From Desulfovibrionales bacterium (lineage in GTDB: Bacteria; Desulfobacterota; Desulfovibrionia; Desulfovibrionales; Desulfovibrionaceae), in assembly GCA_030156255.1 (NCBI GenBank), contig JASGMV010000013.1, positions 1-64,000 on the forward strand: a stretch of 64,000 nucleotides of DNA, in the 5' to 3' direction. The notes below the pieces were generated by a model. That model had not been told where the DNA came from. It searched no databases and saw only the letters and a list, made by a program, of their open reading frames with translations. The first letter of the stretch is position 1. The number at the start of each line of letters is the position of its first letter. A program made the position numbers and the translations under genes. Positions 28,958 to 32,608 of this stretch are shown here, piece by piece.

Positions 28958-28988
28958 TGTAACTTTTTGGTAGGGCCAGCCGTCTGTA
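28958..28988 (+). promoter_or_regulatory. ECF-sigma type promoter of the sigma operon
   Basis: TGTAAC (-35, 28958-28963), 17-bp spacer, then CGTCTGTA (-10, 28981-28988). This GTAAC/CGTC pattern is the typical autoregulated promoter of ECF sigma factors and stands upstream of the ECF gene. The same 11-base TGTAACTTTTT block and CGTCT occur at identical spacing upstream of the EF-hand gene. Confidence 0.72.
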
Positions 28989-29009
28989 TAGACGACAGGA
29001 GGCGGCCAA

Positions 29010-29195
29010 ATGGTTGTACTGCAATTTGACCCGAACGCTCGGCGACGGCGCCAACCGACCCCGATTTCGCCCGGCTGCAAAAAAGCCTTGGAACGAATCC
29101 TCGACAAGACCTTGCTTCGGAAAAGGAAAAATGCGGAGGCGAAATTCGAAAGCCTGCAGCCGCGCGCTCAGCCGCCAGGAGACTCTGCGGCGTAG
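29010..29195 (+). CDS. Small basic ORF leading the ECF operon
   Basis: Family not recognised. A 61-residue, Arg/Lys-rich protein (MVVLQFDPNARRRRQPTPIS at the start) whose ATG has an ideal AGGAGG 7 nt upstream, placed right after the ECF-type promoter. It has no signal peptide or membrane helix. The perfect ribosome binding site is the main support; codon periodicity cannot be judged over so short a stretch. It could be a true small protein or a translated leader that tunes expression of the sigma gene about 50 bp downstream. Confidence 0.5.
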   Translation: MVVLQFDPNARRRRQPTPISPGCKKALERILDKTLLRKRKNAEAKFESLQPRAQPPGDSAA

Positions 29196-29246
29196 CCCGG
29201 CCGGCGGGAGGGGAGTCCCACGAAGCCGACAACGCCGATGGAATGA

Positions 29247-29792
29247 ATGCGTCAACGAAGCAGCCGAACCGATGCAGACCTGGTCGAACTGTGCAAAAGT
29301 GGAGAGACTGAGGCTTTCGAAGAGCTGGTCCGCCGGCGCAAACGAGAGATTCTCGGGTTCATCTCGAAATTTTGCGACACTCCCGACGAGGTGGATGACC
29401 TGGGCCAGGAGGTTTTCCTCAAGGCGTACCAGGGTCTTTCCGGTTTTCGCGCCTCCAGCAGCTTTCGAACGTGGCTGTACCGGATTACGTCCAACGTTTG
29501 CCTCGACCACTTGAGACGCAAGCGAAGAGAGCCTATCACGTTTGTAGAGGATGTGACGCTATGGGAGCAGGGCGAAGACTCGAACGTTCAGGAGCAAAGA
29601 GTCCTGGTGGAGTCCCTGTTGAACGCCTTGTCGCCCATGGACCGGATGATCGTGACGATGCTGCACATCGAAGGATTCAGTGTGCAACAAACCGCTGAGC
29701 GCCTCGGCGTCACCGGCGTCAGCGTCCGGGTGCGGGCGCATAGGGCGAGGAAGCGGCTTAAATCGCTCATGGAGGAGCGGCATGACCAGTAA
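29247..29792 (+). CDS. ECF-type RNA polymerase sigma factor
   Basis: A 181-residue sigma-70 family factor with only regions 2 and 4. Region 2 runs from about 9 to 82 (EAFEELVRRRKREILGFISK, DEVDDLGQEVFLKAYQGL, FRTWLYRITSNVCLDHLRR). Region 4 is about 118-172 (VESLLNALSPMDRMIVTMLH, FSVQQTAERLGVTGVSVRVR, HRARKRLKSL). It likely drives its own promoter upstream and that of the EF-hand gene. The stop overlaps the next gene by 11 nt, the usual arrangement for a sigma and its membrane-bound regulator. The signal is probably envelope stress or metals, judging from the Spy-like gene that follows. Confidence 0.93.
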   Translation: MRQRSSRTDADLVELCKSGETEAFEELVRRRKREILGFISKFCDTPDEVDDLGQEVFLKAYQGLSGFRASSSFRTWLYRITSNVCLDHLRRKRREPITFVEDVTLWEQGEDSNVQEQRVLVESLLNALSPMDRMIVTMLHIEGFSVQQTAERLGVTGVSVRVRAHRARKRLKSLMEERHDQ

Positions 29793-30072
29793 TCCCAGAA
29801 ACATTCATGAACTCGCGGAGCTGGCGCGCGCGACCGCGCCGGACATCCGAAGCGTGGAGAACGGCTTCGAACGCCGCGTGAGGCGGCGGATCGAATCCGA
29901 GCCCATCGCGCTCCCCGTTTCGAATTTGTTCAGCATGGCCTGGAAAGCCGCTCCGGTGTGCGCCGCGGCCCTGGCCGCCGTCATGGTCCTGACGTGGCTC
30001 CACGGCGCGGGAGCCGACAGCGCAACGAGCCAAACCTACGCGTTTTTGAATTTATTCTACCCCGGTTATTGA
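29782..30072 (+). CDS. Small single-pass membrane protein, candidate anti-sigma
   Basis: A 96-residue protein with a charged N-terminal half (about 50 residues) and one membrane helix (AAPVCAAALAAVMVLTWLHG). No conserved anti-sigma zinc motif (HxxxCxxC) is visible. Its position, overlapping the sigma gene by 11 nt with GGAGGAG before the ATG, and its cytoplasmic-helix-plus-anchor shape suggest a short anti-sigma factor. The short exported tail (SQTYAFLNLFYPGY) leaves little room for a sensor, so sensing may fall to the next gene product. Confidence 0.7.
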   Translation: MTSNPRNIHELAELARATAPDIRSVENGFERRVRRRIESEPIALPVSNLFSMAWKAAPVCAAALAAVMVLTWLHGAGADSATSQTYAFLNLFYPGY

Positions 30073-30082
30073 GGGAAGCGCC

Positions 30083-30499
30083 ATGTCCTCTACATTGAAA
30101 GGCGCGGTCGGTGTTGCGTTAATTTTCATCCTCGGCGCAATCACGGGCGCCGTCGTTACAGACCATTTCGAAAGGCCTCGCATCGGCCCCGGAGACCCCC
30201 AAGCCATGGAGCGCCAGATGCGGGAGTCCATGGTCCGCGATCTTCAAATCACCGACGAACAGCTCCCGGCCTTTAACGACATCATGGATGAAAAGCAGGT
30301 CTTTTTCCTGGGGATCATACGGGAGACGGCCCCACGCGTCGACGCAGGCATGCAAAAGATCAATCGGAAACTCTATGAAATCTTCACGCCCGAGCAGCGA
30401 GCCCGTTTCGAGGAAATGGAAAAGCGCCGCCGGGAAGACATGCGCAAGATGTCGGAATCAGGCCGGAACAAAACCGGCGAACGGCGCGCGCCTCAATAA
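30083..30499 (+). CDS. Spy/CpxP-like periplasmic protein
   Basis: A 138-residue protein with an N-terminal signal or anchor helix (GAVGVALIFILGAITGAVV) and a helical periplasmic part. The paired LTXXQ-like motifs ITDEQLPAFNDIMDEK and FTPEQRARFEEMEKRR are the mark of the Spy/CpxP/CnrX-type family, which includes chaperones and metal sensors. GAGGGAA precedes the ATG. In metal-resistance systems such a protein sits with an ECF sigma and anti-sigma (CnrYXH), so it may be the sensing partner of the two genes before it. No metal-binding His/Cys cluster is evident. Confidence 0.78.
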   Translation: MSSTLKGAVGVALIFILGAITGAVVTDHFERPRIGPGDPQAMERQMRESMVRDLQITDEQLPAFNDIMDEKQVFFLGIIRETAPRVDAGMQKINRKLYEIFTPEQRARFEEMEKRRREDMRKMSESGRNKTGERRAPQ

Positions 30500-30510
30500 T
30501 CCACCGGAAA

Positions 30511-30530
30511 GGCGAAGGTTGCGCTTCGCC
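30511..30530. terminator. Hairpin between convergent genes
   Basis: GGCGAAG (30511-30517) pairs with CTTCGCC (30524-30530) around a 6-nt loop, 12 bp after the Spy-like gene and before the convergent receiver gene. There is no T-tract, so it is a possible but weak terminator. Confidence 0.4.
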
Positions 30531-30567
30531 CGGCGCCGTTGGCCCGATTCGCCCGCCAAAGAGGCTG

Positions 30568-31071
30568 TTACGCTCCGGATTCGCCGCCCGATTCTCCTTC
30601 GAGCACGATGACCAGCTCCTCGCTTGAGGAAAAGAGCGCTTCGTCCTGGACGGCGAGTCCGGCGTCGGCCCAGAGGCGTTTCTTCGAACCCGGAAGTTTC
30701 CGCCCCGGTCCGTCGTCCAGCAGCCGGACCATTTCCTCCAGCAACTCGTTCAAGTCATAGGGCTTGGCCACCAGGCTGTCCAAACCGGAATTTCGCATGA
30801 CCTCAAGCCGCTCGGGGTCGGCGCAGGAGGTGGCGCCGATGACCAGAGTCCTCTTATTGGGGCCGCCGCTGCGAAGCGTGTGCATCGCCGACACGCCGTC
30901 CGGCCAGGGCTGGTCCATGTCCATGAGCACGAGATCAAAAGCCGCGTTGCGCAGCAGATCGGCCGCAAGGCTGCGGCCGTCGGCCGCGTGGGCGGTGAAT
31001 CCGATGTCCCGCGCCAATGTCGTTACGGTGAGTCTCATGACCGGATCCTTTTCAACAATAAGCAGACGCAT
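30568..31071 (-). CDS. Single-domain response regulator with altered acidic pocket
   Basis: A 167-residue CheY-like receiver (1-120) plus a 45-residue C-terminal tail of unknown role. The phosphoacceptor is present (LVLMDMDQPWPDG) and so is the invariant Lys (LVAKPYDL). The first strand reads LLIVEKDPVMR: aligned with CheY VVDDFSTMR, the residue at CheY Asp13 is Lys. In E. coli CheY, Asp13-to-Lys is a well-known activating change. AGGAGA is 8 nt before the ATG. No kinase is adjacent; it sits between the ECF operon and the EF-hand gene. Confidence 0.85.
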   Translation of the reverse strand: MRLLIVEKDPVMRLTVTTLARDIGFTAHAADGRSLAADLLRNAAFDLVLMDMDQPWPDGVSAMHTLRSGGPNKRTLVIGATSCADPERLEVMRNSGLDSLVAKPYDLNELLEEMVRLLDDGPGRKLPGSKKRLWADAGLAVQDEALFSSSEELVIVLEGESGGESGA

Positions 31072-31189
31072 ATGTTGTCTCCTGCAAGATCACCCGCTGT
31101 AGGTCCGGACGACGCGCATCGCGAATGGCCCCCTCGCGGGGGGCCATTCCGGTCGCGCCATCGCTTTTTCGGGTCGAGCGCCCGGGTCG

Positions 31190-31672
31190 TCAAATGGATA
31201 AATCAAGGACGTAGTCGGCGTAATCGCTGATATCGAGATAGTTCGCAGCGCTGCTGCTGTCGCCGAACACGCTGTCGAGCAGGGTCGACGTCAGGTCGTA
31301 TTGCTCCTGATACGCGGAGGCCGCGCCTGCCTGGTTCATGGGCGGAGGGGCCATGCCCTCTTCCGCCATCTTGGCCATCAATTCCTGGTCGAACTGCTCC
31401 TGGTTGTTCGTGACGCCGGCGGACAATTCCTCTTCGGTGAGCAATCCATCGCCGTCCGTGTCCATGGCCTCGTACAGTTCGTCCGAGAAACCGAGTTCGT
31501 CGACGGATAGATTGCCGTCTCCATCCGTGTCGTTGTTGTTGATCAGCATGCTGGCGGTCTCAGCAGCCGTCGGTTTCTCGCTCTCCTCCGAACTCGAAGA
31601 TATTTTGAGGTTGTTTAAGATTTCCGAGGAAAATAGCGACGAATACCCACTGACCGAGTCGATCGAGCTCAT
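31190..31672 (-). CDS. EF-hand calcium-binding protein
   Basis: A 160-residue acidic protein with two canonical EF-hand loops: NDTDGDGNLSVDEL and MDTDGDGLLTEEEL (about residues 47-80). All calcium-ligand positions are filled, so it should bind calcium. No signal peptide or membrane helix is seen; the N-terminus is Ser-rich and the C-terminus (DISDYADYVLDLSI) is acidic. Related small EF-hand proteins are frequent in Desulfovibrio-like genomes, with unknown roles. AAGGAG precedes the ATG. Upstream are a hairpin-forming palindrome and an ECF-type promoter matching that of the nearby sigma operon. Confidence 0.85.
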   Translation of the reverse strand: MSSIDSVSGYSSLFSSEILNNLKISSSSEESEKPTAAETASMLINNNDTDGDGNLSVDELGFSDELYEAMDTDGDGLLTEEELSAGVTNNQEQFDQELMAKMAEEGMAPPPMNQAGAASAYQEQYDLTSTLLDSVFGDSSSAANYLDISDYADYVLDLSI

Positions 31673-31686
31673 TCCCGTACTCCTTG

Positions 31687-31703
31687 GGGATAAGGGTTAT
31701 CCC
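31687..31703. promoter_or_regulatory. Perfect palindrome in the EF-hand gene leader
   Basis: GGGATAA-GGG-TTATCCC: a perfect 7-bp inverted repeat with a 3-nt spacer, 15-31 bp before the EF-hand ATG and abutting its ribosome binding site. It could be a protein operator or an RNA hairpin affecting translation. Confidence 0.4.
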
Positions 31704-31791
31704 TCCCGTAAGCGAAGGCGGGAGCGGACCAGGTCGATCGATGGGGGGGAAGGACTGAAGAACGCCCTGCCCGCTCCGCCTCACTTGTTCA

Positions 31792-31822
31792 TGTAGACGA
31801 AGGAGGAGGGGAAAAAGTTACA
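31792..31822 (-). promoter_or_regulatory. ECF-sigma type promoter of the EF-hand gene
   Basis: On the minus strand: TGTAAC (complement of 31817-31822), 17-bp spacer, CGTCTACA (complement of 31792-31799). It matches the ECF operon promoter at 28958-28988 in both elements, in spacing and in the TTTTT after the -35. The predicted leader to the EF-hand ATG is about 110 nt. Confidence 0.68.
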
Positions 31823-31861: not shown

Positions 31862-32548
31862 TCATCCTCCGGATGAAACCCTCTCAAGCCCCGGCGCGTC
31901 CAGTATGCGGACAATGGGACCGTCCACCTTGATGCATCCCTCTTCGATCAGCTTCCTGAACACGCGGGACAGCGTCTCCTGGATGGTTCCAAGGTAGGCG
32001 GCCGTCTGGCCCTTGGTCAGGTCCAATCGAAACTCGTCGCGGCCGTGGGAGTCGCGCAACAGCAGCAGATACCCGGCCAGCCTGGCCGGAACCTCCTTCA
32101 GGCTCACGGCCTCCAGTTTCTCGACGAACCCCCGCAGCCGCCCGGCCAGCAAAGCCAGCATGGCCATGGCCAGTTCGGGGTCCTGCGACACGGCTTGCTT
32201 CAGGCTCGTCCGGGACCAATAGGCCAAGCGAGATTCGCCAAGAGTCGCGGCGCAGGCCGGGAACGTTCCGCCTTGAAAAACCGGGACCTCTCCGAAGACC
32301 TCTCCCGGCCCGAAAACGTGAAGAATCAATTCCTTGCCCGAAGTCGAAGCCTTGAAGACTTTCACCCGTCCCTCGACGACCATGTAAAAACCCGCCGCAT
32401 CCTCCCCGGAGCGAAAAATTTCGAACCCGCCCGGCCGCTCGCGCACAACGGCCAATGCGGCGAGTTCATCCAGCATCCCGTCCGAAAGTCCTCGAAACAA
32501 GGGAGTTTCAGCCATGGCCGCGATCAACGGCGCAGCTTCGTTGTCCAT
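31862..32548 (-). CDS. hcpR: Crp/Fnr-family regulator, HcpR-type
   Basis: A 228-residue regulator. The N-terminal cNMP-fold effector domain (RPGGFEIFRSGEDAAGFYMV, FGPGEVFGEVPVF) is joined by a long dimer helix to a C-terminal winged HTH (LTKGQTAAYLGTIQETLSRV, the recognition helix). No N-terminal Fnr cysteine cluster is present, consistent with HcpR, which is reported to sense NO or nitrosative stress through another cofactor. It is divergent from hcp, the classic HcpR target, with a palindromic operator between them. Two consecutive ATGs (32551 and 32548) are possible starts; AAGGGG spacing favours the second. Confidence 0.85.
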   Translation of the reverse strand: MDNEAAPLIAAMAETPLFRGLSDGMLDELAALAVVRERPGGFEIFRSGEDAAGFYMVVEGRVKVFKASTSGKELILHVFGPGEVFGEVPVFQGGTFPACAATLGESRLAYWSRTSLKQAVSQDPELAMAMLALLAGRLRGFVEKLEAVSLKEVPARLAGYLLLLRDSHGRDEFRLDLTKGQTAAYLGTIQETLSRVFRKLIEEGCIKVDGPIVRILDAPGLERVSSGG

Positions 32549-32608
32549 CATCGCCCCTTCCGTGAAATCCGCCGTGGGTTTGCCTTTTTCACACAAAATG
32601 CCTCTCTT

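Follow-up and report, generated by a model that had tools for sequence, protein, structure and literature searches.

Matched ECF-type promoters predicted to connect a sigma factor operon with a nearby EF-hand gene in a Desulfovibrionales bacterium

EF-hand proteins are common in bacteria and are rarely tied to a regulator. The stretch of 64,000 nucleotides from a Desulfovibrionales bacterium that was analysed here (the window) raises the question whether such a protein is controlled by a neighbouring sigma factor: an operon encoding a sigma factor of the extracytoplasmic function (ECF) type and a gene for an EF-hand protein are both preceded by the same promoter-like motif. The initial annotation had located this motif, with an equal spacing of 17 bp, at 28958 (+) and 31822 (-), in intergenic DNA and facing the right way, and all of this was confirmed. 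The two sites, TGTAACTTTTTGGTAGGGCCAGCCGTCT (28958-28985, +) and TGTAACTTTTTCCCCTCCTCCTTCGTCT (31822-31795, -), are exact matches to the shared motif TGTAACTTTTT-N12-CGTCT, i.e. TGTAAC-N17-CGTC (-35 TGTAAC, 17 bp, -10 CGTC), and each is oriented toward its own gene. The 12 bases that separate the blocks differ between the two sites; the agreement is thus confined to the promoter-like blocks and does not stem from recent copying of a longer segment. Sigma-70 promoters were sought at both sites and none were found. We consider it very probable that both sites are promoters used by the sigma factor, for the autoregulation of its operon and for the expression of an EF-hand effector gene, because many relatives have this promoter conserved before their version of the operon, in some of them with an EF-hand gene at its head.

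The specificity of the motif was evaluated by pattern searches of the window and of the complete 3.84-Mb genome. TGTAAC-N17-CGTC occurs twice in the window (0.03 expected), and none of the shuffles yielded two matches. The genome-wide scan that had been proposed in the initial annotation retrieved 6 matches, against 1 for the reversed-pattern control, and the feared abundance of random matches did not occur. When up to two mismatches were allowed in the full motif, TGTAACTTTTT-N12-CGTCT, only the two window sites were recovered; the remaining matches all had three mismatches and their number was at or below the control level (17 vs 38 in the control). The pattern nGTAACnTTTT-N12-CG was found three times, and the third match was rejected as a target as it lies antisense within a modA-like coding frame. 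The other four genomic matches to TGTAAC-N17-CGTC (beside a tRNA-like stretch, before the gene of an ABC-transporter binding protein (L004), before a thiC-like gene, and at an unlinked site) do not share the T-run and were taken as chance. The one related to the ABC-transporter substrate-binding protein, TGTAAC-N17-CGTCT at G000:C17:3166-3192 (-), could be either a weak third target or such a chance match.

To delineate the ECF group of the sigma factor a profile of eight orthologs was used, with which 247 genomes of the family were searched. The profile sets the group apart (matches with E below about 1e-45, followed by a gap to 1e-37) and 89 orthologous sigma loci were extracted from the same family; one sigma factor of the group was found in the window genome. 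In 72 of these loci nGTAAC-N17-CG is present within 1.5 kb upstream of the sigma gene and on the same strand; in shuffled sequence the mean was 7.4 and the maximum 15. When any spacing from 8 to 27 was accepted, a distance of 17 stood out (60/89 loci within 900 bp; reverse strand 1/89, downstream 2/89), and the site was missing from all 19 loci examined in other ECF groups. The orthologs share an ECF-type -35/-10 pair of fixed spacing upstream of their own operon, and by this property the site qualifies as a putative autoregulated promoter. The family consensus reads TGTAACC-N16-CG(A/T)(C/T), in which the -10 element tracks the sigma tree: the window sigma groups with those of G014, L057 and L163, all with CGTC. 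The site was also seen in other families of the phylum, often with the T-run (L212, with TGTAACTTTTT..., L214, L215, L217 and L221). The sigma operons that were recorded as lacking an exact TGTAAC-N17-CG (L093, L095, L100, L144, L145, L159-L162 and L165) are mostly from genus g10, and their promoter may have changed or been lost in that branch. The conservation includes the operon itself, as an LTXXQ-like third gene is present in 82 of the 89 loci and an open reading frame (ORF) with a transmembrane (TM) segment occupies the anti-sigma place in at least 59 of 82 relatives: the sigma factor, the one-TM anti-sigma candidate and the anchored LTXXQ protein are, as judged from these sequences, a conserved unit.

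The link to the EF-hand gene also recurs in the relatives. In 15 of the 89 loci a motif search identified an EF-hand ORF that directly precedes the sigma gene in the same orientation, and G022, where the contig is cut, adds a further case. The site is nearly always found just before this ORF, typically 50-185 bp ahead of its start; the exceptions are G022, where it lies between the EF-hand and sigma genes, and L164, in which no exact site was found. The motif of the 31822 site hence recurs before sigma-linked EF-hand genes, and before one unlinked EF-hand gene (L178). For unlinked EF-hand genes the site was encountered in 1 of 20 cases in genomes carrying the group sigma, and in 0 of 20 in a set of genomes most of which lack this sigma factor. 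In many further loci, a Sec-type secreted LTXXQ/Spy-like protein (MKKLLYGLLTLAILVGSAYAVAAGP...) is encoded in the first slot. Across the family the first slot is thus filled by an EF-hand or a secreted Spy/LTXXQ protein, which implies that promoter and sensor are constant and the effector is exchangeable. Separate promoters were found as well: in G254, the one exception among the unlinked EF-hand genes of sigma-bearing genomes, the EF-hand gene stands apart from the operon and has TGTAAC-N17-CGAC following a terminator-like hairpin, and the sigma operon likewise has TGTAAC-N17-CGAC; G021 (L061:5450-7250) has three TGTAAC-N17-CGTC sites, one before the sigma gene and two before a separate downstream Spy-like gene, and so provides a second case of one sigma factor with matched separate promoters. 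In view of these arrangements the window is most readily understood as the product of a rearrangement, by which the EF-hand gene, now inverted, would have been detached from the operon while retaining a promoter copy of its own. The local regulon that had been postulated, in which the sigma factor induces the EF-hand gene, is therefore supported by footprinting, both by the 72 loci with the site and by the relatives that have the EF-hand gene first behind the promoter. The first gene of the G014 operon (L056:9157-9618, -) encodes a 153-aa protein without a known family (MAIDGIGAGSG...); it was rejected as an EF-hand relative, is unrelated to Spy too, and may represent a third type of effector.

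Various observations speak against the explanation favoured here. The T-run that is shared by the window sites is not the family consensus, as its first position is a C in 93%, and the exact motif is absent from 17 of the 89 orthologs. Moreover, the 89 loci are phylogenetically related and the counts therefore measure conservation, not independent events. A fold search with the model of the LTXXQ protein gave no significant match (best match Spy, E 4.3), and the operon of the closest relative, G014, starts with a gene that is unrelated to the EF-hand protein. The EF-hand gene that G014 does possess (L064) is without the site, and the same holds for 19 of the 20 EF-hand paralogs that are found elsewhere in sigma-bearing genomes. 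The latter two findings would fit an explanation in which the 28958 site is a real autoregulatory promoter and the 31822 site a coincidental or decayed copy, with the EF-hand gene outside the control of the sigma factor. We hold this to be unlikely, however, as the 31822 site is identical to the 28958 site over TGTAACTTTTT and CGTCT, at equal spacing and uniquely within the genome, the sigma-linked EF-hand genes of relatives do have the site, and the detached arrangement is replicated in G254.

A hierarchy of sigma factors could also be envisaged, in which the sites are served mainly by another ECF sigma factor of the same genome, with overlapping specificity, and the window sigma is a downstream target. 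Such a relation, of SigT over SigV, has been reported for sigV and cabp of Caulobacter vibrioides (PMC13171946), yet the single group member in the genome, and a motif that follows the operons of the group and is lacking at the 19 other ECF loci, make it quite improbable here. That the sites are no promoters at all and bind a transcription factor, for instance the CRP/FNR-type regulator whose gene (31862-32569) adjoins the 31822 site, is least probable of all and would be highly surprising: the conserved pattern consists of two asymmetric, non-palindromic blocks that have a fixed spacing and face the gene, and it resembles the Caulobacter sigma-F site GTAACC-N16-CGAA (PMC3511200).

The features of the locus are listed in the table. 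The 28958 site indeed precedes the sigma operon, as had been stated, but the first ORF behind it is a 61-aa frame that had been missed, and the sigma gene itself starts further downstream. This small frame has no Pfam match and gave only chance-level matches in 39 related genomes, and was therefore rejected as a conserved gene. The sigma factor contains sigma-70 regions 2 and 4 only and, with 181 aa, lies in the range of about 180-200 aa of the ECF (group 4) type, to which it hence belongs. For the anti-sigma candidate neither a Pfam family nor any significant family match was obtained (a weak match to the NCBIfam 'antisigma' model has E 0.022). The LTXXQ protein is probably a sensor or co-regulator; its predicted structure is all-helical (predicted local distance difference test score, pLDDT, 86.6), and its score for Metal_resist (PF13801) is 15.9 bits, below the cut-off of 29.2.

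Features of the sigma factor locus and the basis of their assignment
Feature	Position	Strand	Basis
Predicted ECF-type promoter of sigma operon	28958..28985	+	Exact match; position and spacing kept upstream of orthologous sigma operons
61-aa ORF, first in operon	29010..29195	+	Strong AGGAGG ribosome site shortly before ATG
ECF sigma factor, 181 aa	29247..29792	+	Sigma70_r2 5e-18, Sigma70_r4_2 2.4e-14 (Pfam); TIGR02937 4.3e-28
Candidate anti-sigma factor, 96 aa, single TM	29782..30072	+	Position, hydrophobic stretch; ATG 29782 overlaps sigma stop
Membrane-anchored LTXXQ (Spy/CpxP-like) periplasmic protein, 138 aa	30083..30499	+	LTXXQ 25.8 bits vs cut-off 24.3
EF-hand protein, 160 aa, two EF loops	31190..31672	-	EF-hand_1 9.2e-8; AAGGAG ribosome site before ATG
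Predicted ECF-type promoter of EF-hand gene	31795..31822	-	Exact match; 123 bp before ATG

The EF-hand protein has two canonical calcium-binding loops, DTDGDGNLSVDE and DTDGDGLLTEEE, and is predicted to bind calcium. It scores 39.9 against the XopAW calcium-binding effector family (NF041410), for which the cut-off is 120. No hydrophobic N-terminal Sec signal is visible in the protein or in its sigma-linked relatives (by inspection of the sequences; no signal predictor was run), and because of this both a non-Sec export and a cytoplasmic role are possible. The sigma-linked EF-hand proteins have an N-terminus of the type M-x-I-S/N-S and end in a short tail with an alternation of hydrophobic residues (SVSLSA, LDLSI, LNLTI). 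The Sec-less N-terminus (MQIS/MEIS) and the hydrophobic tail (SVSLSA, LDLSI), which are shared by L104, L108, L119, L121, L125, L132, L134, L139 and the window protein, together perhaps constitute a non-Sec export signal.

The gene layout agrees with that of the CnrYXH/NccYXH modules (nickel-cobalt, Cupriavidus metallidurans), where an ECF sigma factor, a short anti-sigma factor with a single TM segment and an anchored periplasmic protein of the LTXXQ/Metal_resist type are encoded in one operon. In CnrYXH-type systems the short anti-sigma factor (CnrY, about 95 aa) and the periplasmic helical sensor CnrX gate the sigma factor. The likeness here refers to the layout, not to the sequences of the anti-sigma candidate and CnrY; the binding mode of CnrY has been described (PMC7406223). 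The window differs in the gene order (sigma, anti-sigma, LTXXQ), the sub-threshold Metal_resist score, the lack of adjacent efflux genes and the EF-hand or Spy-like effectors. LTXXQ-family periplasmic proteins also act as sensor or effector in the Cpx/Spy envelope stress response, which is under the control of the CpxAR two-component system instead of an ECF sigma factor. The small, heavy-metal-related regulon of Caulobacter sigma-F has a promoter in which GTAAC and CG are separated by the same distance as here, but the target genes and the last bases of the -10 element are different (PMC3511200). The nearest functional precedent, albeit a partial one, is CaBP-SigV of Caulobacter, where the EF-hand gene cabp adjoins the gene of an ECF sigma factor and overexpression of SigV induces the cabp promoter (PMC13171946). 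There, CaBP is a periplasmic protein with a Sec signal, whereas the window protein has no visible Sec signal; the SigV promoter reads GGAAA / CGTTCA instead of TGTAAC / CGTC; the sigV promoter sits inside cabp, unlike in the window; and no anti-sigma or LTXXQ partner was identified (PMC13171946), in contrast to the anti-sigma candidate and the anchored LTXXQ protein of the window operon. In the collection of papers that was searched, nothing relevant turned up on this ECF group in Desulfovibrio-like bacteria, among which the gene content would place the source of the window.

We read the system as a putative CnrYXH-like switch for envelope or metal stress that is autoregulated and whose effectors are exchangeable. 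For this switch we infer the promoter recognition, anti-sigma action, sensing, signal, ion binding and localisation as follows. At rest, the sigma factor would be kept at the membrane by the single-TM anti-sigma factor. Like CnrX or CpxP, the anchored LTXXQ protein would respond to a condition in the periplasm, either metal load or misfolding, by freeing the sigma factor. The freed factor would then transcribe both the sigma operon and the EF-hand gene, and the EF-hand protein would bind Ca2+ or another metal ion. The earlier designation of the sigma factor as 'envelope-stress type' fits its presumed anti-sigma and LTXXQ partners, but a metal-sensing, CnrYXH-like role fits equally well. That EF-hand and Spy-like proteins replace one another behind this promoter suggests a response to the same stress. 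Rather doubtful, and offered as a tentative extension, is the notion of a phylum-wide ECF switch, not described so far, in which promoter and sensor are fixed and the effectors (a Spy-like chaperone or, exported by another route, an EF-hand protein without a Sec signal) substitute for one another in function; if so, the EF-hand protein would serve the cell envelope as an ion buffer or chaperone. Through the conserved promoter and operon, an EF-hand subfamily would in many related genera be assigned to a defined stress sigma factor, and the experimental handle is direct: one sigma factor, two promoters and one reporter assay.

Between the sigma operon and the EF-hand gene, a receiver-domain protein without an evident output domain is encoded (30568-31071, -). 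A strong GC-rich inverted repeat (GAATGGCCCCC...GGGGGGCCATTC, 31117-31152) that lacks a T-run separates the EF-hand and receiver genes and may act as a terminator or attenuator.

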